Shown here: positions 21,293 to 33,169 of the stretch, one piece after another
Position numbering within the stretch: the first letter of the stretch is position 1
Layout: each line of letters starts with the position of its first letter
From: Acidobacteriota bacterium
Lineage (GTDB): Bacteria; Acidobacteriota; Vicinamibacteria; Vicinamibacterales; UBA2999
DNA: 38,546 nucleotides
NCBI GenBank assembly: GCA_027622905.1
Contig: JAQBVV010000016.1
Coordinates: 1-38,546 of the forward strand
Direction of reading: 5' to 3'
The notes under the pieces: generated by a model
What the model was told of the DNA's origin: nothing
What the model saw: only the letters and a program-made list of their open reading frames with translations
Database searches by the model: none
Program-made: the position numbers and the translations under genes

Positions 21293-22531
21293 ATGACCAC
21301 CCAGTTCCACCTGCTTGCCGTGCTTGGCGCCCTGCTGGTCGGGCTGGCCGTCGGCAAGGCCTGGGAACGCTACAAGCTTCGGAACGGTCGCTGGATCGAC
21401 CGTCGCCGACTTCGCGAGACCCCGCACTACATGCTCGGTCTGAACTTCCTTGTCGACAGCCAGGTCGACCAGGCCGTCGAGGAGCTCACCCACGCCGCGA
21501 GCACCGAACCTGAAGCGCTCGAGATCCAGATGATCCTGGGCAACCTGTACCGCGAGAAGGGACAGGTGGGCCGCTCGGTGACCGTCCACCAGGCGCTGCT
21601 GAAACGACCCGACCTCACCGAACTGGAGCACGCGTACGTGCTGCTGTGCCTGGGGCTCGACTTTCGCCACGGAGGATTCGTGGACCGGGCGCTGGAGGCG
21701 TTCCAGGAGGTGCTGCAGCTCGACCCGCTGAACCGCTATGCCCTGATCAACTTGCAGAAGCTGCACGAAGACCAGCATCAGTGGGCAGAGGCGTTGGAGG
21801 TGCGCGAGCGACTGGCCAGGATCGATGCGGGCCGCCGGCCGGACGACCAGCAGATCCTGGGCTTCCTGCGCAACGAGATCGGCAGCGCGCAGCAGCGCGG
21901 GGGCGACGGCGCCGTCGCGGCGCGCACGTTTGCGGAAGCCATCGACGCCGACGCCCGCACGACGCCGGCATACCTGAATCTCGGAGACGTCCGTGAGAAG
22001 GAAGGGAACCTCCCCGCCGCCATCGACATCTGGGAGCAACTGATCGACGCCATGCCCGAGCACGCGTATCTGGCGTTCGAGCGGCTGGAGCGTGTGTACC
22101 GGGCGCTGGGCACGCCGTCCGGATTTGCGGCGCTATGTCAGCGACTCATCGACCGCGACCCGCTGGGATGGCGGGCCCGCCTGGCGCTCGCGCGGCACCT
22201 CTCAGCCGCCGGCCAGCATCGTGAGGCATTCGATCGACTGCTCGACGCGCTGCCCCATCACCCGCACGGCCTCGCCATTCACCAGCAGGTGTGGGAAACG
22301 CTGGCGTCGCTCGACTTCGACACGCAGCTGATCCGGCGGTACGTCGATCTCACCCGCGAGGCCGTGTTCTACCTCGACCCCCACATCTGCCGCAGATGTC
22401 GCTACCGCAGCACCGAGCTCCTCTGGCAGTGTCCGCAGTGCCGCGAGTGGAACACCTTCGCACACGAACGGATGGTGCCGGCGAAAGAGACCGCCACGAC
22501 CTCGGGTGATCCAGTAATGGATCCGGAATAG
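21293..22531 (+). CDS. lapB: LapB/YciM-like TPR protein, regulator of LPS synthesis
   Basis: This 412-residue protein has an N-terminal membrane anchor (about residues 6-21), a run of TPR repeats (about 45-340) and a C-terminal rubredoxin-like zinc ribbon with Cys366, Cys369, Cys380 and Cys383 (CRRC and CPQC). This three-part build is that of LapB/YciM, which in E. coli works with FtsH to control LpxC turnover and hence lipid A synthesis. Its position right after kdsA supports a role in LPS control. The arginine-rich ribbon and the domain order are convincing; orthology in detail is inferred. Confidence 0.88.
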   Translation: MTTQFHLLAVLGALLVGLAVGKAWERYKLRNGRWIDRRRLRETPHYMLGLNFLVDSQVDQAVEELTHAASTEPEALEIQMILGNLYREKGQVGRSVTVHQALLKRPDLTELEHAYVLLCLGLDFRHGGFVDRALEAFQEVLQLDPLNRYALINLQKLHEDQHQWAEALEVRERLARIDAGRRPDDQQILGFLRNEIGSAQQRGGDGAVAARTFAEAIDADARTTPAYLNLGDVREKEGNLPAAIDIWEQLIDAMPEHAYLAFERLERVYRALGTPSGFAALCQRLIDRDPLGWRARLALARHLSAAGQHREAFDRLLDALPHHPHGLAIHQQVWETLASLDFDTQLIRRYVDLTREAVFYLDPHICRRCRYRSTELLWQCPQCREWNTFAHERMVPAKETATTSGDPVMDPE

Positions 22532-22586
22532 ACAGTCCGCTCGGAAAGAAGCGCGTCCCCCCCCGGATGCTGCACCGTTCGTCACA

Positions 22587-23492
22587 ATGCATACATCTTC
22601 CCGCGGCCATCTGCCGCAACTCGAGAGCGAAGGCATCCTGATCCTGCGGGAGGTGGCGGCCCAGTTCGAGCGGCCGGCGTTGCTGTTCTCCGGCGGCAAG
22701 GACTCGATCGTGGTCGCGTGGCTGGCCCGCAAGGCCTTCGCACCCGCGCGCGTGCCGTTTCCGCTGCTCCACATCGACACCGGGCACAACTTCCCGGAGA
22801 CGCTCCGCTTCCGGGACGACTTCGCCCGCACGATGGACTGCACGCTGCTCGTCCGGCAGGTGCAGGACTCGATCGATCAGGGGCGGGTGCAGGAGGAGAC
22901 CGGCGCAGCCGCCAGCCGCAACGCCTTGCAGACGACCACGCTGCTGGACGCCATCAAGGAACTGGGCCTTGACGTCGCGATCGGCGGGGCACGGCGCGAC
23001 GAGGAAAAGGCCAGAGCGACGGAGCGCATCTTTTCGCACCGCGACGTGTTCGGCCAGTGGGACCCGAGAAATCAGCGCCCGGAGTTGTGGAACCTGTACA
23101 ACGGGCGGAAGAATCACGGCGAGCACTTCCGCGTCTTTCCGCTGTCGAACTGGACCGAGCTCGACATCTGGCAGTACATCAGCGCGGAGGACATCCCGCT
23201 GCCCGGACTGTACTTCGCCCACCAGCGCGAGATCGTCGAGCGGGACGGAATGCTCCTGGCCACGACCGAGCACCTTCGGCTCGACCCGAGCGACACGGTC
23301 TCGACACGCACCGTGCGCTTCCGCACGGTGGGAGACGCCACGTGTACCGGCGCCGTGGAGTCCAGCGCATCGACGGTGGCCGACATCATCATCGAAACGG
23401 CCGCCGCCAGGATCACCGAGCGCGGGGGCCGCGCGGACGACAAACGATCCGACACGGCCATGGAAGACCGTAAGCGGCAGGGCTACTTCTGA
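22587..23492 (+). CDS. cysD: Sulfate adenylyltransferase subunit 2
   Basis: CysD is the catalytic subunit that makes APS from sulfate and ATP, driven by the CysN GTPase. The 301-residue protein has the PP-loop SGGKDS at residues 35-40, the HIDTGHNFPE block and the conserved C-terminal RKRQGYF ending. ATG at 22587 gives a normal length. It overlaps cysNC by one base (TGATG), so the subunits are translationally coupled. The pair supplies APS/PAPS for cysteine synthesis or sulfation; no reductase or sulfotransferase is in the window. Confidence 0.97.
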   Translation: MHTSSRGHLPQLESEGILILREVAAQFERPALLFSGGKDSIVVAWLARKAFAPARVPFPLLHIDTGHNFPETLRFRDDFARTMDCTLLVRQVQDSIDQGRVQEETGAAASRNALQTTTLLDAIKELGLDVAIGGARRDEEKARATERIFSHRDVFGQWDPRNQRPELWNLYNGRKNHGEHFRVFPLSNWTELDIWQYISAEDIPLPGLYFAHQREIVERDGMLLATTEHLRLDPSDTVSTRTVRFRTVGDATCTGAVESSASTVADIIIETAAARITERGGRADDKRSDTAMEDRKRQGYF

Positions 23493-25441
23493 TGCCGAGC
23501 ACACGACAGCCCGGTGACACGCGCGGAGAGACGCCCGAGCAGACAGGCTCGGCGCCGATGATGGACCTGCTGCGCTTCACCACGGCGGGGAGCGTGGACG
23601 ATGGTAAGAGCACGCTGATCGGACGGCTGCTCTACGACACCAAATCGATCTTCGAGGATCAGCTCGAGGCCGTGGAGGGCGCCAGCCGCAAGCTCGGCGA
23701 GGACCACATGAACCTCGCCCTGCTCACCGACGGGCTGCGAGCCGAGCGCGAGCAGAAGATCACCATCGACGTGGCGTACCGCTACTTCGCCACGCCCCGC
23801 CGCAAGTTCATCATCGCCGACACGCCGGGGCACGTGCAGTACACGCGCAACATGGTCACCGGCGCATCGACGGCCGACCTGGCGGTGGTCCTCGTGGATG
23901 CCGGCAAGGGGGTGCTCACCCAGTCCCGGCGACACGCCTTCATCACGTCGCTGCTGGGCATCCCCCACATGATCGTGGCGGTCAACAAGATGGATCTGGT
24001 GGACTTTGCCCAGTCGGTCTACGACGAGATCGTCGCCGACTTCGGCCGGTTTGCCGCGCGACTCACCGTCAAGGACATCACCTACATCCCGATCTCGGCG
24101 CTCGAAGGCGACAACGTCGTGGAGCGGTCGACGCGCATGCCCTGGTACCAGGGCGGGCCACTGCTGAGCAAGCTGGAAACGGTGGCGGTTGGCGCGCGCA
24201 CCAACAGCATCGACTTCCGATTCCCGGTGCAGTACGTGATCCGTCCGAACCAGACGTTCCGCGGGTACGCCGGCGTGGCGGTGTCCGGATCGGTGGCGGC
24301 CGGCGACGATGTCGTCGTGTTGCCATCCGGCATGGCGACCCGGATCAAGTCCATCGAAACGTTCGACGGCCCCCGGGACCTGGCGGATGTCGGCGAGTCG
24401 GTGGTCCTGACCACGACTGACGAGATCGATATCTCGCGCGGCGACATGATCGTTCGTCCCCGGAACCTCCCCGCGGTGGCGCGCCGGCTGGATGCTTACC
24501 TGTGCTGGATGGACGCCACGGATCTGGCCGTCGGTCGACCGTACCTGCTGGCACACACCACCAGACGCATCCAGGCGATCGTCAAGGGCATCGACTACCG
24601 CGTCAACGTGGACACGCTGCACCGCGACCCGGCGTCAACGCTGGCCATGAACGAGATCGGGCGCGTCGAGATCGAAGCCGCCGACCCGATCTTCTTCGAC
24701 TCCTACCGCCTGAATTCCGCCACCGGTTCGTTCGTGCTGATCGACCTGCAGACCAACGCCACGGTCGCGGCCGGGATGATTCGCGGAGAGACGCACGACG
24801 TGGCCGCCGCAACTCACCCTGCGGCTGCAACGGCCACCACCGTGTCCGCCGGGGTGGTCTGGGAAGGCTGGAATATTCCGCGCGAGGCCCGCGAGGCCCG
24901 CCAGGGACACCAGGCCGCGGTGCTCTGGCTGACGGGCATGTCGGGCGCCGGCAAGACCACCATCGGGAGACTCGTGGAGCGGCAGCTCTTCGAACAGGGT
25001 TGCCGGACGATGCTCCTCGACGGTGACAACCTGCGCCATGGACTCTGCGGAGACCTGGGCTTCTCGCCTGCCGACCGCGACGAGAACATCCGACGCGCCG
25101 GCCAGGTCGCCCACCTGTTTTTCGAGCAGGGCGCCATCGTGCTGTGCGCCTTCGTCTCGCCATATGCGGCGGGACGCTCCAACGTCAGGGGGCTGATGCC
25201 GGCCGGGCGATTCGTCGAGGTCTTCGTGCAGGCCGACGTGGAAACCTGCCGGGCGCGCGATCCCAAGGGGCTCTACGCCAAGGCCTCGACGGGCGGCCTC
25301 GATCAGTTCACGGGGGTGTCAGCGCCCTACGAGGAGCCGGCAGAACCGGAGTTGACGATCGACACGCGCACGATGACCGCCCAGGCCGCCGCCGAGATGG
25401 TGATCGACTTCCTGCGCCGGAGCCGCCTGATCGACGTGTAG
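23492..25441 (+). CDS. cysNC: Bifunctional sulfate adenylyltransferase subunit 1 / APS kinase
   Basis: This 649-residue fusion has an EF-Tu-like GTPase domain (P-loop GSVDDGKS at 33-40, DTPGHVQY, NKMDLVD) followed by beta-barrel domains (about 240-440), and a C-terminal APS kinase domain (about 455-645) with its own P-loop GMSGAGKT near 482-489 and the FVSPYAAGR and DPKGLYAKA blocks. The N half powers APS synthesis with CysD; the C half phosphorylates APS to PAPS. The fusion is known as CysNC or NodQ. It is the last core gene before the accessory island, whose ParE remnant begins 9 bp further on, convergent. Confidence 0.96.
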   Translation: MPSTRQPGDTRGETPEQTGSAPMMDLLRFTTAGSVDDGKSTLIGRLLYDTKSIFEDQLEAVEGASRKLGEDHMNLALLTDGLRAEREQKITIDVAYRYFATPRRKFIIADTPGHVQYTRNMVTGASTADLAVVLVDAGKGVLTQSRRHAFITSLLGIPHMIVAVNKMDLVDFAQSVYDEIVADFGRFAARLTVKDITYIPISALEGDNVVERSTRMPWYQGGPLLSKLETVAVGARTNSIDFRFPVQYVIRPNQTFRGYAGVAVSGSVAAGDDVVVLPSGMATRIKSIETFDGPRDLADVGESVVLTTTDEIDISRGDMIVRPRNLPAVARRLDAYLCWMDATDLAVGRPYLLAHTTRRIQAIVKGIDYRVNVDTLHRDPASTLAMNEIGRVEIEAADPIFFDSYRLNSATGSFVLIDLQTNATVAAGMIRGETHDVAAATHPAAATATTVSAGVVWEGWNIPREAREARQGHQAAVLWLTGMSGAGKTTIGRLVERQLFEQGCRTMLLDGDNLRHGLCGDLGFSPADRDENIRRAGQVAHLFFEQGAIVLCAFVSPYAAGRSNVRGLMPAGRFVEVFVQADVETCRARDPKGLYAKASTGGLDQFTGVSAPYEEPAEPELTIDTRTMTAQAAAEMVIDFLRRSRLIDV

Positions 25442-25449
25442 TAGAGGAA

Positions 25450-25605
25450 TTACCTTCCGCCGATTGAGTCGTCCTGCAGAACGCGCTCGACGTCCTGTGC
25501 GCCGTGTAGCACGGCGACAACAGTAAGAGGCACGCTCGCGGGGTCGTAGACGATCAGGTACGAATAGACGGTCCAGAACTTGACTTGCCGCGCCGTAAGG
25601 TCTTC
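25450..25605 (-). pseudogene. ParE/RelE-type toxin gene remnant, C-terminal half only
   Basis: The minus-strand reading frame ends with EDLTARQVKFWTVYSYLIVYDP and continues VVAVLHGAQDVERVL, the C-terminal half of a RelE/ParE-superfamily toxin (FW..YSYLIVY.P and VLHGARD are typical). Upstream in the reading direction the frame runs straight into repeat C1, so the N-terminal half and any partner antitoxin are missing. The larger ORF in the track (153 aa) is the toxin tail plus translated repeat. Expected to be non-functional. Confidence 0.75.
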
Positions 25606-25608
25606 ACT

Positions 25609-25863
25609 GTCACGGCCACGGAAGCCGGCATCTCGACTCCGCCGTCCGCACGGCACGCCCACCCGGAGGCGCAGGACCTGGAATCCCTTTCGAATCGACA
25701 GCGCTCTGGCGACCGCGTCGGCTAGAGCGTTTTTCGATTCGGTGGAGACCGAAAAACGCGGGAAAGCGCTTTTCGAAAACGCCCGGCCCCCGCGAGAAGC
25801 CCTGGACCGAAACGAAAAGCGCTCGGGCTCCGCGAGACACCGGCTCCTGCGTCCGTGGTGGCC
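25609..25863 (+). repeat. Repeat C, copy 1 (left-truncated, interrupted by element A)
   Basis: It begins at GTCACGGCCACGG, inside what was a ParE gene, and ends at GTCCGTGGTGG. It matches copies 2-4 closely over the core (CCGGCATCTCGACTCCGCC, then GCACGGCACGCCCACCCGGA). It lacks the left 100 bp or so present in copies 2 and 4. A 102-bp element (A) sits after GCGTCGGC. Same orientation as the other copies. Confidence 0.85.
25723..25824 (+). mobile_element. MITE-like element A, copy 1
   Basis: A 102-bp segment interrupts repeat C. Its ends, TAGAGCGTTTTTCGATTCGG and the reverse complement of CCGAAACGAAAAGCGCTC, match at 16 of 18 positions after the first TA. An internal palindrome (GCGTTTTTCG ... 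CGAAAAACGC) gives strong secondary structure. There is no coding capacity. Copy 4 of repeat C is uninterrupted at the same site, which shows that A is an insertion. The right-hand terminal TA present in copy 2 is missing here. Confidence 0.65.
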
Positions 25864-26000
25864 CATCGCTGGAGGCCAGCGTGCGTTGCAGTTGATGGGC
25901 GCCGATCTCACCGCCCTCGATTCGCCGACTTCCGACCGCTTTCTCGTAGCGTTAGAACACTCAGCCGAGCCGCGAGCATGAACACCGACGCTGCAACCTG
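25864..26000. other. Unassigned stretch between repeat C1 and the mazEF promoter
   Basis: About 137 bp with no recognisable gene, attC site or repeat. A GTTAGAA at 25951 resembles an integron R' core but is not preceded by a matching hairpin. The plus-strand ORF crossing it (25580-25981) is mostly translated repeat. Confidence 0.4.
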
Positions 26001-26035
26001 TTGAGTATGATCATACTTTAGGCCATACTCCTTAC
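26001..26035 (+). promoter_or_regulatory. mazEF promoter with overlapping palindromic operator
   Basis: TTGAGT (26001-26006), a 17-bp spacer and CATACT (26024-26029) make a plausible -35/-10 pair, with the start point expected at or beside the mazE GTG (26036). The same stretch holds a perfect 12-bp palindrome GTATGATCATAC (26005-26016) and a second inverted pair GAGTATG/CATACTC, so three GTATG/CATAC half-sites overlap the promoter. This is the layout expected for autorepression by a type II antitoxin. No ribosome-binding site is visible. Confidence 0.55.
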
Positions 26036-26338
26036 GTGGGTAATAGCGAGCGCGTCACCGTCACGCTGTCCGGTGACCTCGTCGAGGGGATCGATCGGCT
26101 CGAGAGGAATCGCAGCCGCTTCATCGCCGAAGCTATCCAGCACGAGTTGGATCGGCGGCGTCGCGATGCCCTCCTCCAGTCGCTCAGTAGCCCACATCCG
26201 GAGACGACCGAACTCGCCGACATGGGCCTGGCCGACTGGACTTCCGACCTGCCCAACGATGAGGGGCTCGTCGATCCAAGAGGCGGAACCGCCGTTCGCT
26301 GGATTGAAGACCGCGGCTGGGTGAAAGAAACGGCGTGA
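26036..26338 (+). CDS. MazE-like/RHH antitoxin
   Basis: This 100-residue protein has an N-terminal ribbon-helix-helix DNA-binding region (about 5-45: RVTVTLSGDLVEGIDRL...RSRFIAEAIQ), the fold used by CopG/ParD/MazE-type antitoxins. The C-terminal half is acidic and Trp-containing (WTSDLPNDEGLVDP), as expected for a toxin-binding tail. It starts with GTG at 26036 and ends in a GTGA overlap (4 bp) with the toxin gene, so the pair is coupled. It likely binds the palindrome just upstream. Confidence 0.83.
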   Translation: MGNSERVTVTLSGDLVEGIDRLERNRSRFIAEAIQHELDRRRRDALLQSLSSPHPETTELADMGLADWTSDLPNDEGLVDPRGGTAVRWIEDRGWVKETA

Positions 26339-26685
26339 AGTTCGAACGAGGCACCGTTGTTCTCGTTGAGCTTGATCCGACGGTTGGCCACGAGCAACGT
26401 GGTTCGCGCCCCTGCATCGCGGTCAGCGATCCGACCGTCAATGTAGATCAGCGCTTCCCCTTGATTGCAGTGGTGCCGGTCACCGGTACCGAAGGGGCGG
26501 GTGCTCTGTATCCCACGTTGTCCCCAGGAGTCAGTGGCCTCACGAAACAGTCGTGCGCTCTCGTGGACCATCTCCGGTCCATCGACAAGCGCCGCATCCG
26601 GCGGATCTTCGGCCAGGTGTCGCCGGGCGAGCTCGCGAGCATCGACCAGGGCCTCGCACTATTCCTGGGCCTCGGCGCCAGCTGA
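26335..26685 (+). CDS. MazF/PemK-family endoribonuclease toxin
   Basis: This 116-residue protein of the PemK/MazF family cleaves RNA when not held by its antitoxin. It has the N-terminal KFERGTVVLVELDPTVGHEQRGSRPCIAVS block, where the Arg-Gly-x-RP segment contributes to the active site, and the later KQSCALVDHLRSIDKRRI block found in the family. It is complete and uninterrupted. The TGA stop lies inside the first bases of repeat C2 (CGCCAGCTGAATCGCCGT), so the last codons are shared with the repeat. Confidence 0.88.
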   Translation: MKFERGTVVLVELDPTVGHEQRGSRPCIAVSDPTVNVDQRFPLIAVVPVTGTEGAGALYPTLSPGVSGLTKQSCALVDHLRSIDKRRIRRIFGQVSPGELASIDQGLALFLGLGAS

Positions 26686-26896
26686 ATCGCCGTAGGGCTA
26701 CCAGACGGTCTTTCAACCATCGTGACCGCCGGTAGCTCCCAAGGAGGCCGCCGCGCACAACGAGTCGCGCAGAGGCCCAAGTCTCACGGCCACGGGAGCC
26801 GGCATCTCGACTCCGCCGTCCGCACGGCACGCCCACCCGGAGGCGCGAGGCCTGGCATCTCTTTCGAATCGACAGTGCTCTGGCGACCGCGTCGGC

Positions 26897-27000
26897 TAGA
26901 GCGTTTTTCGATTCGGTGGAGGCCGAAAAACGCGGGAAAGCGCTTTTCTAAAACGCCTGGCCCCTGCGAGAAGCCCTGGACCGAAACGAAAAGCGCTCTA
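26897..27000 (+). mobile_element. MITE-like element A, copy 2 (both TA ends present)
   Basis: A 104-bp segment nearly identical to copy 1, inserted at the same place after GCGTCGGC in repeat C. The ends are TAGAGCG and CGCTCTA, with the inverted match extending about 20 bp (18 of 20). Finding the same element at the same site in two C copies suggests that a C+A composite was duplicated, rather than two independent insertions. Non-coding. Confidence 0.65.
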
Positions 27001-27131
27001 GGAGCCTGCGCGGCAGAACTGTTTCGGCCAGATTTTCGGGGTACCGCGACCCCTCTCTGGTGCCGATCGCGGCTCCTGGGGCAACGTCGCCAGCTGAAAA
27101 ATCGTGCCGTTTTCTGGCGCGCAGGCTCCTA
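26999..27131 (+). mobile_element. MITE-like element B with 14-bp perfect terminal inverted repeats
   Basis: A 133-bp segment bounded by TAGGAGCCTGCGCG and its exact reverse complement CGCGCAGGCTCCTA. With one mismatch the inverted match continues to CAGAA (19 of 20). It shares its left TA with the right TA of element A and is followed by GCTCCGCGAG of repeat C. Copy 1 lacks it at the corresponding place, so it is an insertion. Terminal TA on both sides recalls Tc1/mariner-type or IS630-type MITEs, but no transposase is present. Confidence 0.7.
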
Positions 27132-27176
27132 GCTCCGCGAGACACCAACTCCCGCGTCCGTGGTGGCCGCCTCGAG

Positions 27177-27258
27177 ACCCAACCCGGGGTGACGTCGCCG
27201 CTTCAGCCGCAGCGGCTCATGATCCACCCCGCCGCTGTCGGCTGCAAGCGGGTTAAAC
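27177..27258 (+). other. Integron attC-like site 1
   Basis: This 82-bp site has a left core ACCCAAC (27177-27183, fits RYYYAAC) and a right core GTTAAAC (27252-27258, fits GTTRRRY). Between them, CCGCTTCAGCCGCAGCGGC can pair with GCCGCTGTCGGCTGCAAGCGG leaving single extra bases on one side, like the extrahelical bases of attC hairpins. AACCCG/CGGGTT next to the cores also pair. About 14 nt between the left core and left arm are unpaired, so it is somewhat degenerate. It lies just before the DUF433-DUF5615 pair. Confidence 0.6.
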
Positions 27259-27277
27259 CCCAAAAACGATCGAGCTG

Positions 27278-27283
27278 TATACT
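27278..27283 (+). promoter_or_regulatory. Putative -10 box of the DUF433-DUF5615 cassette
   Basis: TATACT preceded by TG-rich sequence lies 18 nt before the DUF433 ATG and downstream of the attC-like site, so the cassette would carry its own promoter, as toxin-antitoxin cassettes in integrons usually do. The only -35 candidate, TTAAAC in the attC core, is spaced 19 bp away. Motif match only. Confidence 0.35.
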
Positions 27284-27301
27284 CAGGGAACAAAAGACAA
27301 C

Positions 27302-27526
27302 ATGGGAACCAAATCCGCAGTTGTCCACAGCGACCCGGAAATCATGGGCGGAACGCCCGTGTTTGTCGGAACGCGCGTGCCCTTTCAGACACTCCTTGAC
27401 TATCTCGAAGCGGGCGATCCCCTCTCAGAATTCCTCGAAGACTTTCCGACGGTAGGTCGGGAGCAAGCGGTGGCGGCTCTCGAAGAGGCCAAGGACGCCC
27501 TTCTTGCGCGTGCGCATTCTGCTTGA
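27302..27526 (+). CDS. DUF433 antitoxin-like protein
   Basis: This 74-residue protein shows the DUF433 pattern: HSDPEIMGGTPVFVGTRVPFQTLLDYLEAGDPLSEFLEDFPTV. This small helix-turn-helix-like family typically accompanies DUF5615 (PIN-like) genes as the presumed antitoxin. It overlaps the next gene by 23 bp, which couples the two. It is the first gene of a roughly 656-bp unit (27253-27908) bounded by two attC-like sites. Confidence 0.85.
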   Translation: MGTKSAVVHSDPEIMGGTPVFVGTRVPFQTLLDYLEAGDPLSEFLEDFPTVGREQAVAALEEAKDALLARAHSA

Positions 27527-27830
27527 CGAGTGCCTGCCGAAACGCTTGAAAGGCGATTTGGTCGGGTACGACGCACGAACGGTGCCCGAAATGGGCTGGG
27601 CGAGCAAGCGGAATGGCGAGTTGCTCACCCTGGCAGAGACGCAATTCGATGTGTTTCTGACAGTCTATCGCAATCTCTCATTTCAACAGAATATTGGTCG
27701 GTTCAAGATCGCGGTCGTGGTCATAGTAGCCAAGAGTAACAAACGCACTGACCTGCAACCATTGATCAAAGACGTGTTGGCGGCTCTGCCCACAGCAATA
27801 CCCGGCCACGTCACGAAAGTGGGTGCCTAA
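27504..27830 (+). CDS. DUF5615 PIN-like toxin candidate
   Basis: This 108-residue protein of the DUF5615 (PIN-like) family is the presumed RNase toxin partner of DUF433. The start RILLDECLPKRLKGDL carries the first acidic site (LLDE), and the FDVFLTVYRNLSFQQNI block is characteristic. Most relatives that I recall have Asp in this block (LT-x-D); here it is Tyr (LTVYRN), so catalytic activity may be lost or changed. The TAA stop abuts the left core of attC-like site 2 exactly, the usual arrangement for a gene cassette. Confidence 0.83.
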   Translation: MRVRILLDECLPKRLKGDLVGYDARTVPEMGWASKRNGELLTLAETQFDVFLTVYRNLSFQQNIGRFKIAVVVIVAKSNKRTDLQPLIKDVLAALPTAIPGHVTKVGA

Positions 27831-27914
27831 ACCTAACCAGGCGAGACCAGGCGCTGAACCCGACGGCCGCCGGTGCCCTCATGAGCGGCCGCTGGTGAGC
27901 GCCGGGTGTTAGAC
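27831..27914 (+). other. Integron attC-like site 2
   Basis: This 84-bp site starts at the base after the DUF5615 stop. The left core is ACCTAAC (27831-27837) and the right core GTTAGAC (27908-27914); CTAAC/GTTAG are complementary. The inner arms GGCGCTGAACC and GGTGAGCGCC, and CGGCCGC with GCGGCCG, pair with one or two extra bases, as in attC hairpins. CCAGGCG is duplicated near the left core (CCAGGCG-AGA-CCAGGCG). This is the clearer of the two sites. No integrase or attI is in the window. Confidence 0.72.
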
Positions 27915-27974
27915 CGTTCGTCCATCAGTTGAGACGAGTGTGGGGCTGAGGTTGGCGTCGAAGAGCAGCTTCAC
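27909..27974 (-). pseudogene. DUF5615 gene truncated at the attC-like site
   Basis: GTG at 27974 overlaps the stop of the minus-strand DUF433 gene as GTGA. The product begins MKLLFDANLSPTLV, the typical DUF5615 N-terminus, then diverges and ends after 21 codons. Its TAA is part of the right core of attC-like site 2 read on the other strand (GTCTAAC). About 80-90 codons of the toxin are missing, so the junction with the attC-like site is where the gene was cut. Confidence 0.75.
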
Positions 27975-28192
27975 GCCACCGAACTTACGCGACGCTCACG
28001 CGCGGCGGCGAAGGCAAGGCTGGCGCGAATATCCTCGGTGGCCAGATCCGGGAAGTCGCTCAGCAACTGCGCTTCGGTCATGCCACCAGCGAGATACTCC
28101 AGCACGTCGTAGACGGTGATGCGCGTGCCCTTGATGCACGGCTTACCACTACGGACGCCGGGATTGACGATGATTCGTTGCTCCCACTCCAT
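27971..28192 (-). CDS. DUF433 antitoxin-like protein, second copy, inverted
   Basis: This 73-residue protein (MEWEQRIIVNPGVRSGKPCI, then KGTRITVYDVLEYLAGGMTE) is a canonical DUF433 member. The ORF in the track (to 28699) extends upstream through repeats; ATG 28192 matches the start of the family. It is oriented opposite to the first DUF433-DUF5615 pair and is only distantly similar to it. It now lacks a functional partner because the DUF5615 gene behind it is truncated; an orphan antitoxin could still neutralise related toxins. Confidence 0.82.
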   Translation of the reverse strand: MEWEQRIIVNPGVRSGKPCIKGTRITVYDVLEYLAGGMTEAQLLSDFPDLATEDIRASLAFAAARERRVSSVA

Positions 28193-28241
28193 GGAGCCGA
28201 TTCTACTCCCTTCTTCTCGAGGCGCCGTTCCAATGCCGTTT

Positions 28242-28292
28242 GGTGGAAAGACACGGTTCTTCGCGTCGCTCGGCTTCTCCCGCGAGTACTCC
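28242..28292 (+). pseudogene. Short relic of a DUF6883 gene
   Basis: About 50 bp (GGTGGAAAGACACGGTTCTT to CGCGAGTACTCC) nearly duplicate the segment at 28577-28630 inside the DUF6883 gene, with about five differences. In that gene it encodes GGKARFFASLGFSREYP. No start or remaining frame is present, and it runs directly into repeat C3. It is the leftover of a second, lost DUF6883 copy or of a partial duplication. Confidence 0.6.
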
Positions 28293-28463
28293 CACGGAGG
28301 CCGCCGCGCACGACGAGCCGCGTAGAGGTCCAGTAGAGGGCCAGGTGTCGCGGCCGCGGGAGCCGGCATCTCGACTCCGCCGTCCGCACGGCACGCCCAC
28401 CCGGAGGCGCGAGGACTGGCATCTCTTTCGAATCGACAGCACTCTGGCGACCGCGTCGGCCGG
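28290..28463 (+). repeat. Repeat C, copy 3 (no element A, truncated both sides)
   Basis: It runs from TCCCACGGAGGCCGCCGCGC to GCGACCGCGTCGGCCGGG. It lacks the left 70 bp or so of copies 2 and 4 and the right-hand CTCCGCGAGACACCGGCTCC block. A short extra stretch (CAGTAGAGGGC) distinguishes it. The A insertion site is intact. It ends 29 bp before the DUF6883 start codon. Confidence 0.8.
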
Positions 28464-28492
28464 GTGATTCGACGTGGGACAATGCAGGCAAC

Positions 28493-28836
28493 GTGAAGCT
28501 CCGGAACGCTCAGCTTGCTGTCGTCGAACGTGGCAAGGTCCTCGACTATCTGCTGGATGAAGCCCACCCGGACAACGGTGGGAAGGCACGATTCTTCGCG
28601 TCGCTCGGCTTCTCCCGCGAGTATCCCGAGCGCCTGATGAGGGCCCTCCGGCAGGTCGCCGAACACGGCGAGGTCGCGAAAAGCGCGGCATCGGTGCATG
28701 GAGAGAATACGTTGTTGACGGCTGGTTGTCGGTGCACACTCAAGAGAGCCGGCAAAGGTCGGTCCGCACGGTTTGGATTATCGACCACGGCGGGGCGGCA
28801 CCGCGACTCGTGACCGCGTATCCTGGCAAGGAGTGA
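28493..28836 (+). pseudogene. DUF6883-family gene with a frameshift at an A run
   Basis: GTG 28493 opens KLRNAQLAVVERGKVLDYLLDEAHPD, continuing KARFFASLGFSREYPERLMRALRQVAEHGEVAK, the DUF6883 pattern. After the AAAA at 28679-28682 homology moves to another frame (EYVVDGWLSVHTQ, then SVRTVWIIDHGGAAPRLVTAY) and ends at TGA 28836. One extra A would restore a single frame of about 114 codons. This is a real frameshift, an assembly error or, less likely, programmed slippage. It is followed 8 bp later by a DUF4926 gene, a pairing seen often elsewhere. No function is established for either family. Confidence 0.72.
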
Positions 28837-28844
28837 CCATTCGA

Positions 28845-29078
28845 ATGATCAAGGAGCACGATCGAATCGTTCTGAACGAGCCCGTGCCCGGCGAAGGCCT
28901 CGAAGTTGGCGACGTCGGCACGGTGGTTCACGTTTACGCGGACGGGAAGGCGTTCGAGGTCGAGTTCACGACACTCGACGGTAAGACCGCCGCCGTCGCA
29001 ACCGTGGAAGCACTCGCGGTCCGGCCGGTCACCGGTCACGAGATCACGCACTCTCGCGAGCTGACGGACGCCAGATGA
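28845..29078 (+). CDS. DUF4926 protein
   Basis: This 77-residue protein starts MIKEHDRIVLNEPVPGEGLE, followed by VGDVGTVVHVYADGKAFEVEF and ATVEALAVRPVTGHEI, the DUF4926 signature of a small all-beta protein. The ORF track start at 28773 lies in the preceding gene; ATG 28845 is the family start. GTDs in this family accompany DUF6883, and the pair has the size and coupling of a toxin-antitoxin module, but that role is inference. Its TGA stop lies inside the first bases of repeat C4, the same arrangement as mazF with C2. Confidence 0.82.
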   Translation: MIKEHDRIVLNEPVPGEGLEVGDVGTVVHVYADGKAFEVEFTTLDGKTAAVATVEALAVRPVTGHEITHSRELTDAR

Positions 29079-29317
29079 ATCGCCGTTGAACTGGGAGACG
29101 GTCTTTCAGCCATCATGACCGCCGGTCGCTCCCAAGGAGGCCGCCGCTCACAACGAGCCGCGTAGAGGTCCAAGTGTCACGGCCGCAGGAAGCCGGCATC
29201 TCGACTCCGCCAGCCGCACGGCACGCCCACCCGGAGGCGCGAGGCCTGGAACCGTTTTCGAATCGACATCTCCCTGGCGACCGCGTCGGCCGGCTACGCG
29301 AGACACCGGCTCCCGCG
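29069..29317 (+). repeat. Repeat C, copy 4 (uninterrupted, nearly full length)
   Basis: It begins CGCCAGATGAATCGCCGTTG, overlapping the DUF4926 stop, and runs through GACGGTCTTTCAGCC, CAAGGAGGCCGCCGCTCAC and the shared core to GAGACACCGGCTCCCGCG. At about 249 bp without insertions it is the reference copy. It reads GTCGGCCGGCTACGCGAG straight across the position where copies 1 and 2 carry element A. The 75 bp between it and rfbA hold nothing recognisable. Confidence 0.85.
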
Positions 29318-29393
29318 GCAGCGGTCGCGAGCTGCGCTGTCCTTCTGCGTCCCTCATCGAGGCGCAGTGGGAGGCGTGGGAAGCGATCGCGCC

Positions 29394-30278
29394 TCAGTCC
29401 GCCTCGGTCTCCTTGAGCAGGCTCAACAGGTACTGCCCGTAGCCGTTCTGTTCGTAGGGCGTGGTGAGAGCCCGCAGTGCGTCAGCATCGATCCACCGCT
29501 TGCGGAAGGCGATCTCCTCGGGGCACGCGATCTTGAGTCCCTGCCTGCGCTCCACGGTCCGGACGAACTGATTGGCCTCGATCAGGCTTTCGTGGGTGCC
29601 CGTGTCGAGCCAGGCGAAGCCCCGTCCCATCACTTCCACCGCGAGCGATTTCTTGTTCAGGTAGACCCGGTTGAGGTCGGTGATCTCGAGTTCGCCCCGC
29701 GGCGACCGCTCAAGGCTCCTGGTGTACTCCACGGCGTGCTCATCGTAGAAATACAGCCCCGTCACGGCGTAGTTCGATCTGGGCTTCTGCGGCTTCTCTT
29801 CCAGGCTGACGACCCGCCCCTGCCGATCGAACTCTGCGACGCCGTATCGTTCCGGGTCGTGCACGTGGTAGGCGAAGACCGTGGCGCCAATCGCCCTGTC
29901 CGACGCCGACGCCAGAAGCCGTTGGAGTTCGTGCCCGTAAAAGATGTTGTCGCCCAGCACCAGCGCCGACGGGTGCTGCCCCACGAACGAATCTCCGATG
30001 ACGAACGCCTCCGCGAGTCCGCCGGGCGACGGCTGCACGCGATAGCTCAGGTTCAGCCCCCACTGCGACCCGTCCTTCAGCAGTTCTTCGAACATCGGGA
30101 GATCGCGGGGCGTGGAGATGATCAGAATCTCCCTGATGTCGGCCAGCATCAGGGTCGACAGCGGGTAGTAGATCATCGGCTTGTCGAACACCGGCAACAG
30201 CTGCTTCGACACGGCGAGGGTTGCCGGATGGAGTCGCGTGCCGGCCCCGCCAGCCAGGATGATGCCCTTGCGTGTCAT
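29394..30278 (-). CDS. rfbA: Glucose-1-phosphate thymidylyltransferase
   Basis: RfbA (RmlA) makes dTDP-glucose, the first step of dTDP-rhamnose synthesis. The 294-residue protein has the nucleotidyltransferase signature [22 protein letters not shown] near the N-terminus, [11 protein letters not shown], and the [20 protein letters not shown] and [11 protein letters not shown] blocks of the family. Length is normal. It is the last gene of a minus-strand group with rfbC; rfbB and rfbD are not in the window, so the rest of the pathway must be elsewhere. The accessory island begins right after its stop codon. Confidence 0.96.
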
Positions 30279-30323
30279 GTCGTGCTCTCCGAACCGATCG
30301 CGCGTCTCAGCAGGGCTTCCACG

Positions 30324-31094
30324 TCAGCCGGTCTTTCGCGTTTCAAACCAGCGGCGCAACGAAGCCGGGGTTTCACCGGAACGTCGCCCGGCGAGCAGGC
30401 CTTCCACGCTGACGTCCTCGTCCAGTTCGGGCCAATGCAGGCCCTCACCCTCACCGATAATCCGCCAGTGCGCTCGTGCCTCGTTCGTACCATGTGCAAG
30501 CCGCGGGTACCAGCTGAGGGGAACCGCAATGGTCCGACTATCGATGAGATCGACCACGAGTGCGTCGCCGGTAATCGAGACGCGCTGCGCCCGACCTTCG
30601 GTCATAGCAATCCGTGACGATGAGGTACTTTGCCCTTGTCGGCCAGCAAGGACCAAAAGCTCATTGTCCCCTTTCGCGACCACCAGCACGACACTCCCGA
30701 TTGGCACGTGCTTTGGGACCAGCTCCCTGATCCGACGCACGAGGCGCCAGTAGTCAATTTTCTGCTGAAACGCCTCGCGAGCGTCTGACGACAGCTGGGC
30801 AGAAAAGAAGTCGCACAAGAGAGACCGGAGTTCTTCGTCTCGTCTCGCGATATCGCGTCTTATTGCGTCGAGCAGGACGTCACCGCTCGCCTCTTGATCC
30901 CCCTCTTTAATGGCGGCCGTCTTGGTCACCGACCGTGGGGCGGGCGGTTTGCCAGGCCTCTTCGCAGAAACCTTGAGCTTGCTGCGATGACTGGATCCAT
31001 TCTCCAGTCCCACCTCCTCGGCCGCCGTTGGGCTGGCCAGCAATTTGCCTGCTGGGGCATCGGCAGTTCGACGTACCAAACTTTTTCTACTCAT
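30324..31094 (-). CDS. Chimeric ORF: glycan-cluster domain fragment fused to DUF2442
   Basis: This 256-residue ORF has a basic, low-complexity N-terminus (1-65), a helical stretch, then YWRLVRRIRELVPKHVPIG and VVLVVAKGDNELLVLAGR (about 112-150), resembling part of the uncharacterised domain in the neighbouring 205-aa ORF. From about residue 165 it is a complete DUF2442 domain (RVSITGDALVVDLIDSR, PLSWYPRLAHGT, GLHWPELDEDVSVEGLLAG). An internal ATG at 30605 would give a free-standing 93-aa DUF2442 protein, the usual form of this antitoxin-like family. The start overlaps the rfbC stop (ATGA). Whether the fusion protein is functional is unknown. Confidence 0.6.
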   Translation of the reverse strand: MSRKSLVRRTADAPAGKLLASPTAAEEVGLENGSSHRSKLKVSAKRPGKPPAPRSVTKTAAIKEGDQEASGDVLLDAIRRDIARRDEELRSLLCDFFSAQLSSDAREAFQQKIDYWRLVRRIRELVPKHVPIGSVVLVVAKGDNELLVLAGRQGQSTSSSRIAMTEGRAQRVSITGDALVVDLIDSRTIAVPLSWYPRLAHGTNEARAHWRIIGEGEGLHWPELDEDVSVEGLLAGRRSGETPASLRRWFETRKTG

Positions 31095-31753
31095 TTCTCG
31101 CCCTTCGTGCCAATGTCGGTCGTCGCGGTCGACGACGGCACCACATCCGGTAACGCAGCTCTGAACTCACCAAAACTCGCCAACCGCCGATCGCGTTCGG
31201 AAACGGTGGGCTGTCCAATCGGCCATCGGATCGCAAGGTCGGGGTCGCTCCAACGGATGCCGTCTTCCGTCGCGGGGTTGTACGGGACGTCCACCTTATA
31301 GAGAATATCGGCCGGTTCGTCTCCAAGGACACAGAAACCGTGCGCGAATCCCTCCGGTATCCAGAGGAGCCTGCCGTTGGTGTCGCTGAGTTCGAGTCCG
31401 ACGTGCCGCCCAAAGGTGGGCGAATCCGGCCTGATGTCCACGACGACATCCCAGATTCGCCCCCGGACGACGCCGACGAGCTTCCGCTGCCACGGTGACT
31501 GCTGATAATGGAGTCCGCGCAACACACCCGGCGCCGAGCGCGAGTGGTTGTCCTGAACAAAGGTGGTCGGCAATCCGTGAGCGTCGAACGCGTCCGTTCG
31601 ATATCGCTCGACGAAGAATCCGCGCGCGTCTCCCCAGACCTTGAGTTCGATCAGGCGCAGCCCATCGAGGTCGAGCGGCGTGACGCGAATCCCGCCGGGG
31701 GGACTCTCATCCTCTGGAGGAACCGCGCCTTGCGATTGCTTCGCGACCGCCAT
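31091..31753 (-). CDS. rfbC: dTDP-4-dehydrorhamnose 3,5-epimerase (start revised)
   Basis: RfbC (RmlC) epimerises dTDP-4-keto-6-deoxyglucose at C3 and C5 on the way to dTDP-rhamnose. The cupin core shows GDARGFFVERYRTDAF, the active-site His in RGLHYQ, the Asp in VVVDIRPDSPTFG, and WIPEGFAHGFCVL. The ORF track start (31789) lies inside the upstream gene; ATG 31753 (MAVAKQSQG) lies 2 nt after that gene's TAG and is preceded by GAGAG, giving 220 residues. An N-terminal extension of about 20 residues and a C-terminal tail after the cupin make it longer than the typical 180-190. Confidence 0.92.
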   Translation of the reverse strand: MAVAKQSQGAVPPEDESPPGGIRVTPLDLDGLRLIELKVWGDARGFFVERYRTDAFDAHGLPTTFVQDNHSRSAPGVLRGLHYQQSPWQRKLVGVVRGRIWDVVVDIRPDSPTFGRHVGLELSDTNGRLLWIPEGFAHGFCVLGDEPADILYKVDVPYNPATEDGIRWSDPDLAIRWPIGQPTVSERDRRLASFGEFRAALPDVVPSSTATTDIGTKGEK

Positions 31754-31755
31754 AC

Positions 31756-32373
31756 CTACTCTCTCGACTCCCCACGTTGCTGGTCCCAATCACCTGCCGA
31801 CACCGCACTGCCCTCGCGCTCGGGCTGGTCCGGCCGCAGGTCGAAAATGGCGCACGAGTCCTCGTCGCGCGCAAGCGGCCGATAACGCGTCAGGAGATGT
31901 TCGCCGAACGCCTGGTAGTATTCCAGCCACCACACCGTTGTCGACGGCACGACGACAAATTCGGCGCCTTTCGCTCGCAGTCGTTCCAGTTCGTCAATGC
32001 ACGCGGCGCTGTCTGCCGGGTAGTGACCGGCGTAGCCCCCGTCCTGATCCTGCGGGAAGTGCCACGCGCGACGGCCCGCCAGATCGAGCAGATCGTCGTC
32101 GCCCTTGCTTACTACCAGTACGGTCGCGTCGGTCGGCACCGCATCGGAAACCGTCCGCCGAATGCGCTCGACCAACGCGGCGTATCCTGATCGGGCTCGC
32201 CGTGTGTGGGGCTGCACCCGTTCGGGAGACGGAAACTGTCCACGGTCCCCATTGGGCGCAAAGGTGCCGTATGCGACCCCCTTCACGAGGAAGCGTTGTT
32301 CGCCACAGCGCAGGAACTTCCCGTCTGGAAGTGCGCGCGAGGCAGTCTGACCACACAAGGCGATCGACGACAA
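31756..32373 (-). CDS. Chimeric ORF: glycosidase-type N-terminal scrap plus glycan-cluster domain
   Basis: This 205-residue ORF starts with TTG. Residues about 15-55 (GKFLRCGEQRFLVKGVAYGT, then FAPNGDRGQFPSPERV) resemble the first strand and loop of a TIM-barrel glycoside-hydrolase domain that precedes glycosyltransferases in related bacteria, but the barrel is missing. Residues about 68-185 (YAALVERIRRTVSDAVPTDA, VLVVSKGDDDLLDL, WHFPQDQDGGYAGHYPADSA, WWLEYYQAFGEHLLTRY) form an intact uncharacterised domain that I associate with polysaccharide gene clusters. It looks like an internal deletion of a larger gene. It is first in the rfb operon here. Confidence 0.5.
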   Translation of the reverse strand: MSSIALCGQTASRALPDGKFLRCGEQRFLVKGVAYGTFAPNGDRGQFPSPERVQPHTRRARSGYAALVERIRRTVSDAVPTDATVLVVSKGDDDLLDLAGRRAWHFPQDQDGGYAGHYPADSAACIDELERLRAKGAEFVVVPSTTVWWLEYYQAFGEHLLTRYRPLARDEDSCAIFDLRPDQPEREGSAVSAGDWDQQRGESRE

Positions 32374-32560
32374 GATACGGCTGGCCTCTCTTTTTCACGT
32401 CAGGCGGGGGGTCCTGCGAATTAAAGTCCTAGAAAGTCCTTCAGACTACGACCACAAGATTAAAGTGTGCAACGTCCTTCTATCGCGTGTCAATGCCCAA
32501 AAGTGTAATTTCAATAACGATTTAGCTCCATTTACCGTCTTGGTCTGGCTGTCGAGGGCG
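32374..32560 (-). other. AT-richer upstream region of the rfb operon
   Basis: These 187 bp lie between coaE and the first rfb-operon gene and are clearly less GC-rich than the flanks. On the minus strand there is a perfect TTGACA (32494-32489) and AT-rich sequence downstream of it, but no -10 at 16-18 bp, so the promoter is only suspected. AAAGTCCT occurs twice close together (near 32420). No ORF is supported. Confidence 0.35.
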
Positions 32561-33169
32561 CTACGGGAAGAGCACGCCAAACAACCTCGTTACCTGCCTG
32601 TCAGTTTCCTCGTAGTCGCCATCGGTCGAAATCACGTAGTTCGCGCGGCGCACCTTTTCGTGAATAGGCAACTGCACGCCGATCCGCAGTCGTGCCTCTG
32701 CATCAGACATGCCATCTCGCGCTATCAAACGACGAATCTGCGTGGCCGGATCGCACGCGACCACGATGACGGCGTCGAAATCACGATCCCGGCCCACTTC
32801 ATACAAAAGCGGAATATCGGCGATCGCGCAGGGGAACTGCTCTGCGTCCAGGGATGCAAACCACCGATCGGTGGCCCGTCGAACCTCGGGGTGCACGATC
32901 GCCTCCAGCGCCAATCTCGACTCCGGGTCGGCAAACACGATGTCAGCGAGGCGCTGGCGGTCGAGGGTCCCGTCCGGGTGCAGCACATGCCGGCCAAAGC
33001 GAGCCACGACCGAGGCCAGACCCGCCGTGCCAGGAGCCACGGCGTCGCGCGCCAACGCATCGGCATCAATGGTGGGAACGCCGAGCGCCTCGAATCGCGC
33101 TCGCACGTAGCTCTTCCCTGTAGCGATTCCGCCCGTCAGGGCGACGCGTCTGACGTCTGCGCGATCCAC
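32561..33169 (-). CDS. coaE: Dephospho-CoA kinase
   Basis: CoaE phosphorylates the 3'-hydroxyl of dephospho-CoA, the last step of CoA synthesis. The 202-residue protein has the P-loop GGIATGKS at residues 13-20, the IDADALARDAVAPGT block and the lid/CoA region (HPEVRRATDRWF, IPLLYEVGRDRDFD, RLIARDGMSDAEARLRI). Length is normal. The following 134 bp towards folD contain nothing recognisable. Confidence 0.95.
   Translation of the reverse strand: MDRADVRRVALTGGIATGKSYVRARFEALGVPTIDADALARDAVAPGTAGLASVVARFGRHVLHPDGTLDRQRLADIVFADPESRLALEAIVHPEVRRATDRWFASLDAEQFPCAIADIPLLYEVGRDRDFDAVIVVACDPATQIRRLIARDGMSDAEARLRIGVQLPIHEKVRRANYVISTDGDYEETDRQVTRLFGVLFP

Follow-up and report, generated by a model that had tools for sequence, protein, structure and literature searches.

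Gene order and genomic setting

The window, a stretch of 38,546 nucleotides, corresponds to positions 1-38,546 of contig JAQBVV010000016.1 of an Acidobacteriota bacterium (GCA_027622905.1; GTDB Vicinamibacteria; Vicinamibacterales; UBA2999), whose assembly is a draft of 239 contigs with 97% completeness and 4% contamination. It carries an operon on the minus strand in which two chimeric open reading frames, recognised as such in the initial annotation, alternate with two dTDP-sugar genes. The first chimeric frame, p205 (31756-32373, minus strand; 205 aa, TTG start), is followed by rfbC (31091-31753, minus strand; TIGR01221, 215.8 bits at a cut-off of 155.75), encoding dTDP-4-dehydrorhamnose 3,5-epimerase, by the second chimeric frame, p256 (30324-31094, minus strand; 256 aa, ATG start), and by rfbA (29394-30278, minus strand; TIGR01207, 490.1 bits at a cut-off of 360.65), encoding glucose-1-phosphate thymidylyltransferase. 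The start of rfbC was taken as the in-frame ATG located 2 nt past the p205 stop, and the rfbC stop overlaps the ATG of p256 by 4 nt (ATGA). Both chimeric frames are, as first described, open and coupled to rfbC. The spacing between p256 and rfbA is 45 nt, and rfbB is located elsewhere in the same genome, outside the operon.

The operon occupies one end of a stretch of about 10 kb (22532-32560) between a lapB-like TPR gene (21293-22531, plus strand) on the left and coaE (32561-33169, minus strand) on the right. Among 18 relatives that have both flanking genes on one stretch, the gap between them is 0-107 bp in 15, and 626, 1391 and 4530 bp in the remaining three. Since 10 kb are found here between genes that are nearly adjacent in relatives, the site is a variable island, containing sulfate-activation genes, dTDP-sugar genes and several toxin-antitoxin parts. 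The presence of 0.6-4.5 kb at this junction in three relatives raises the possibility of an insertion hot spot.

Besides the operon, the island contains cysD and a cysN-cysC fusion (22587-25441), several toxin-antitoxin-type genes (26036-29078) and, among the latter, dispersed repeats about 106-215 bp long that occur three or four times (25610-29329). The toxin-antitoxin-type genes include a PemK/MazF-type toxin (26335-26685) with a likely partner upstream, two DUF433 genes (27302-27526, and 27971-28699 on the minus strand), a DUF5615 gene with a match below the cut-off (27504-27830) and a DUF4926 gene (28773-29078).

Composition of p205 and the KGD-WWL domain

Of the six possible frames, that of p205 has the highest codon score in each half of the gene. 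Residues 1-54 (32212-32373, minus strand), ending in GQFPSPERV, match the beginning of GH2_C-GT2 fusion proteins, with identities of up to 70% in alignments of 37-54 aa; these proteins were found in 16 of 58 relatives as frames of 725-1344 aa. The N-terminal motif of these proteins (GKFL..RFLVKGV.YGTF) is present in p205, as seen in an alignment with ten relatives; thus, the glycosidase-like start noticed in the initial annotation can be assigned to the beginning of this enzyme. Neither the GH2_C barrel nor the GT2 domain was matched by Pfam in p205.

From residue 55, p205 reads QPHTRRARSGYAALVERIRR. Its residues 55-63 (QPHTRRARS; 32185-32211, minus strand) match the linker located behind the GT2 domain of proteins combining GT2 with the domain described below (GT2-KGD proteins), where the corresponding sequence is WQPHGRRTGERYRGVAERIR (WQPHGRR) in L059, WAPHARR in L102 and WRPHGRR in L078. 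The retention of this PHxRR linker indicates that the 3' half of p205 comes from a GT2-KGD gene and not from a free domain.

Residues 59-180 (31834-32199, minus strand) form a complete copy of an unnamed domain of about 120 residues, defined here from 20 sequences and designated KGD-WWL. The match covers positions 3-120 of the 121 in the profile (143.5 bits). In a leave-one-out comparison p205 scored 132.4 bits, ranking 7th of 20, and it keeps 14 of the 15 conserved columns, i.e. the domain is undecayed. By sequence comparison, p205 is the start of one enzyme joined to the end of another, with the catalytic parts of both gone. As its domain is undecayed, a folded, catalysis-free product is plausible, the alternative being a recent origin of the gene, and p205 may still function as a module devoid of catalysis.

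None of the 16 sequences of the first KGD-WWL alignment matched a Pfam family, and only two isolated weak matches were obtained for them in NCBIfam; a PDB sequence search with p205 and the KGD-WWL profile gave no meaningful match. For two distant members, one of them p205, AF2 predicted a confident alpha/beta fold (pLDDT 90.5 and 91.4, pTM 0.83 and 0.86, the first value of each pair being that of p205). Foldseek searches of the PDB and viral libraries with the models returned nothing at E <= 0.001.

In other proteins KGD-WWL is a C-terminal module. Its N-terminal partners according to Pfam are GT2, GT1-group and GT47 glycosyltransferases, methyltransferases including TylF, PIG-L deacetylase and sulfotransferase, as well as polysaccharide pyruvyl transferase, for which the Pfam match was below the cut-off. 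A sulfotransferase-KGD fusion was observed in the relative L019, and may be compared with the sulfate-activation genes of the island. The earlier description of one uncharacterised domain in both frames is therefore to be refined: the domain is whole in p205, reduced to one third in p256, and elsewhere attached to many glycan enzymes. Runs of two or three genes all ending in KGD-WWL were found in L083 (1-13834), L081 (6233-9564) and L165 (1-3600), several of these neighbouring genes belonging to different enzyme families.

The distribution of KGD-WWL is patchy: within the phylum it was found in 5 of 396 genomes and within the class in 3 of 193 (the genome of the window being counted in both), while the phylum of L059, which comes from an Actinomycetota MAG, gave 3 of 297. 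A scan of genome contigs with one protein returned only L059, a plasmid search gave no match, and no relative was found in viral contigs with the KGD profile A4. Tentatively, KGD-WWL might be an undescribed module that gathers unrelated enzymes on one glycan or carrier, with p205 as a catalysis-free survivor acting in trans in the rfb operon; we regard this as doubtful.

Composition of p256

The first 112 residues of p256 (30759-31094, minus strand) form a low-complexity and then helical N-terminal region. Coding signal is weak in residues 1-65, none of the six frames being favoured there; in residues 66-152 the frame of p256 ties for the best codon score, and it scores best in the remainder of the gene. 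Residues 113-154 (30633-30758, minus strand), ending in GRQG, represent the first third of KGD-WWL (about 42 residues): the profile matches over positions 5-46 of 121 only (16.2 bits, i-E 7e-7), short of a full domain. This piece, containing VLVV(S/A)KGD, is indeed common to both frames, as had been noted, with 22 of 39 residues identical and E = 1e-9 for the pair.

The closest relative of this part is a stand-alone KGD protein (L103), with 48% identity over residues 98-154 of p256. Likeness ends at the join, where L103 reads GRNG-WHFPQ and p256 reads GRQG-QSTSSS. The cut, placed after LAGR in the initial annotation, is thus better placed just after GRQG, whereas the replacement by DUF2442 proposed there was borne out: residues 155-256 (30327-30632, minus strand) comprise a whole DUF2442 protein of the DhiA antitoxin type (PF10387, 73.4 bits at a cut-off of 23.9, positions 3-71 of 72). 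It is 69-76% identical to stand-alone frames of 105-106 aa (L085-L088); a CAA codon occupies the position of their ATG, and the DUF2442 protein follows from STSSS onward.

DUF4160 and DUF2442 form the DhiTA type II toxin-antitoxin pair, whose activity was shown in E. coli as well as in Dickeya dadantii (PMC8198452); for Thermus, a role of the pair in plasmid stabilisation was proposed (PMC12724237). Full reading of two relatives placed the DUF2442 gene directly downstream of a DUF4160 gene (called by eye). A PF13711 search of the whole genome detected no DUF4160 toxin gene adjacent to p256; its sole match lies on another contig (C58), beside a partial DUF2442. That pair (L053, 1468-1777) is itself partial and apparently broken.

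Judging by these matches, p256 is probably an orphan antitoxin fusion, and on the glycan side it probably descends from a small KGD protein of the stand-alone type seen in L103. With two thirds of KGD-WWL gone, an antitoxin-like domain is probably the most that p256 can contribute. The proposal that both frames are fusions derived from large glycan-assembly genes therefore stands as regards fusion, but an origin from large genes applies to p205 only, with its two parents (GH2-GT2 and GT2-KGD), and not to p256, whose other half is an antitoxin.

Origin of the two frames and comparison with known systems

Each half of p205 and p256 matches a distinct full-length protein, the middle parts of these proteins are missing, and the joins fall at a linker or a gene start. 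The genome of the window was found to contain no full-length parent and no further KGD gene. The draft state of the assembly, with its many contigs and some contamination, could suggest that the joins are assembly errors. However, the sequence common at the joins to those relatives of the parents that were compared is only a few bases long, which is not enough for an assembler overlap; neither join has a long repeat, the listed repeats ending at about 29329; and both joins are in frame, all of which makes such errors the least probable explanation of the two frames. The dispersed repeats were also considered as agents of deletion, and rejected on their position.

Another explanation could be that GH-start/KGD and KGD/DUF2442 are established architectures missed by sampling. 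The KGD domain is rare and patchy, so its sampling is thin, and the genome sets searched include no other member of the genus of the window. Nevertheless, no relative with the same arrangement was found in these sets: all KGD frames from nine other genomes stand alone or have other partners, and no DUF2442 frame of a relative matches the KGD piece of p256. We consider this explanation very unlikely, if slightly less so than misassembly.

The reading that we find fairly probable is that the operon is the remainder of a glycan-assembly cluster that was larger and laterally variable, p205 and p256 being remnants of at least two in-frame deletions. An ancestral cluster situated between two conserved housekeeping genes would have been mostly lost. 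p205 would have arisen from one deletion that brought the 5' end of a GH2-GT2 gene into frame with the 3' end of a GT2-KGD gene. For p256, another deletion would have left the 5' part of a stand-alone KGD gene fused to the DUF2442 frame of a DUF4160-DUF2442 pair, taking out the remaining KGD domain together with the DUF4160 toxin. Deletion between neighbours is made plausible by known arrangements: in one genome (L165) two GT2-KGD genes are followed by a stand-alone KGD gene, and in L080 a GH2-GT2 gene directly adjoins a GT2-KGD gene. The deletions are reconstructed rather than seen, because no close relative has the undeleted ancestor, the genus being otherwise unsampled. A literature search yielded nothing relevant to such fusions. 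The product of p205 might be a folded KGD-WWL domain serving in trans as a non-catalytic accessory, for tethering or ligand binding, while p256 would yield an antitoxin-like domain whose cognate toxin is not encoded alongside. The latter frame may have stayed open partly because losing it would interfere with translational coupling along the operon.

Open frames and an undecayed domain in p205 fit selection for the products as well as they fit a recent origin, and were counted against the remnant reading. Both frames might accordingly be selected functional genes, p205 as a working, catalysis-free KGD-WWL protein with a part in assembling a glycan that contains dTDP-sugars, and p256 as a regulator of the operon through its DUF2442 part. 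In-frame structure, tight coupling to rfbC, and the leave-one-out rank and conserved columns of p205 are in line with this, as is the finding that a stand-alone KGD protein adjoins GT2-KGD genes in L103 and L165; the antitoxin of Dickeya represses the dhiTA promoter (PMC8198452). Yet just one third of KGD-WWL is left in p256, its antitoxin has no adjacent partner, and neither gene was found in any second genome examined. Moreover, two random joins would both be in frame with a chance of 1/9, for which reason openness alone is weak evidence. Selection for both products is thus unlikely in our estimation, although it is a better candidate than missed architectures or misassembly.

Even if p205 and p256 are, as is probable, remnants, they lead to a domain of about 120 residues without a sequence match in Pfam or the PDB, which at least six kinds of glycan-assembly enzyme carry at their C-terminus, often encoded in tandem. 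A module shared by otherwise unrelated enzymes of one pathway would offer a handle on how such pathways hold their enzymes on one substrate. The locus is also an example of an antitoxin frame taken up into a biosynthetic operon, the toxin being absent.

Among known structures, the KGD-WWL models show weak Foldseek likeness to the soluble C-terminal domain of AglB/GT-C enzymes, AfAglB (3vu0) recurring for two different members, and to SAM-methyltransferase-like folds; with a best E of 0.011 and TM-scores < 0.5, these give a lead only and no fold assignment. The N-terminus of p205 resembles that of GH2_C-GT2 fusion glycosyltransferases (PF02836 and PF00535), but p205 lacks the remainder of the barrel, the entire GT2 domain and the C-terminal region of these enzymes. 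With the GT2-KGD proteins (L059, L102, L078) p205 shares the linker and a complete C-terminal KGD-WWL, but not the GT2 catalytic domain. The stand-alone KGD protein of L103 (1015-1872), which adjoins two GT2-KGD genes, consists of a long variable N-terminal extension and a KGD domain, and matches p205 (52%) as well as p256 (48% around the shared piece); its KGD domain is complete, whereas that of p256 is cut after GRxG and followed by DUF2442. Residues 155-256 of p256 correspond to the complete DUF2442 protein of DhiTA, but in contrast to that system there is no neighbouring DUF4160 toxin, the start codon is replaced, and DUF2442 is both coupled to rfbC and fused behind a fragment of a domain from glycan enzymes.
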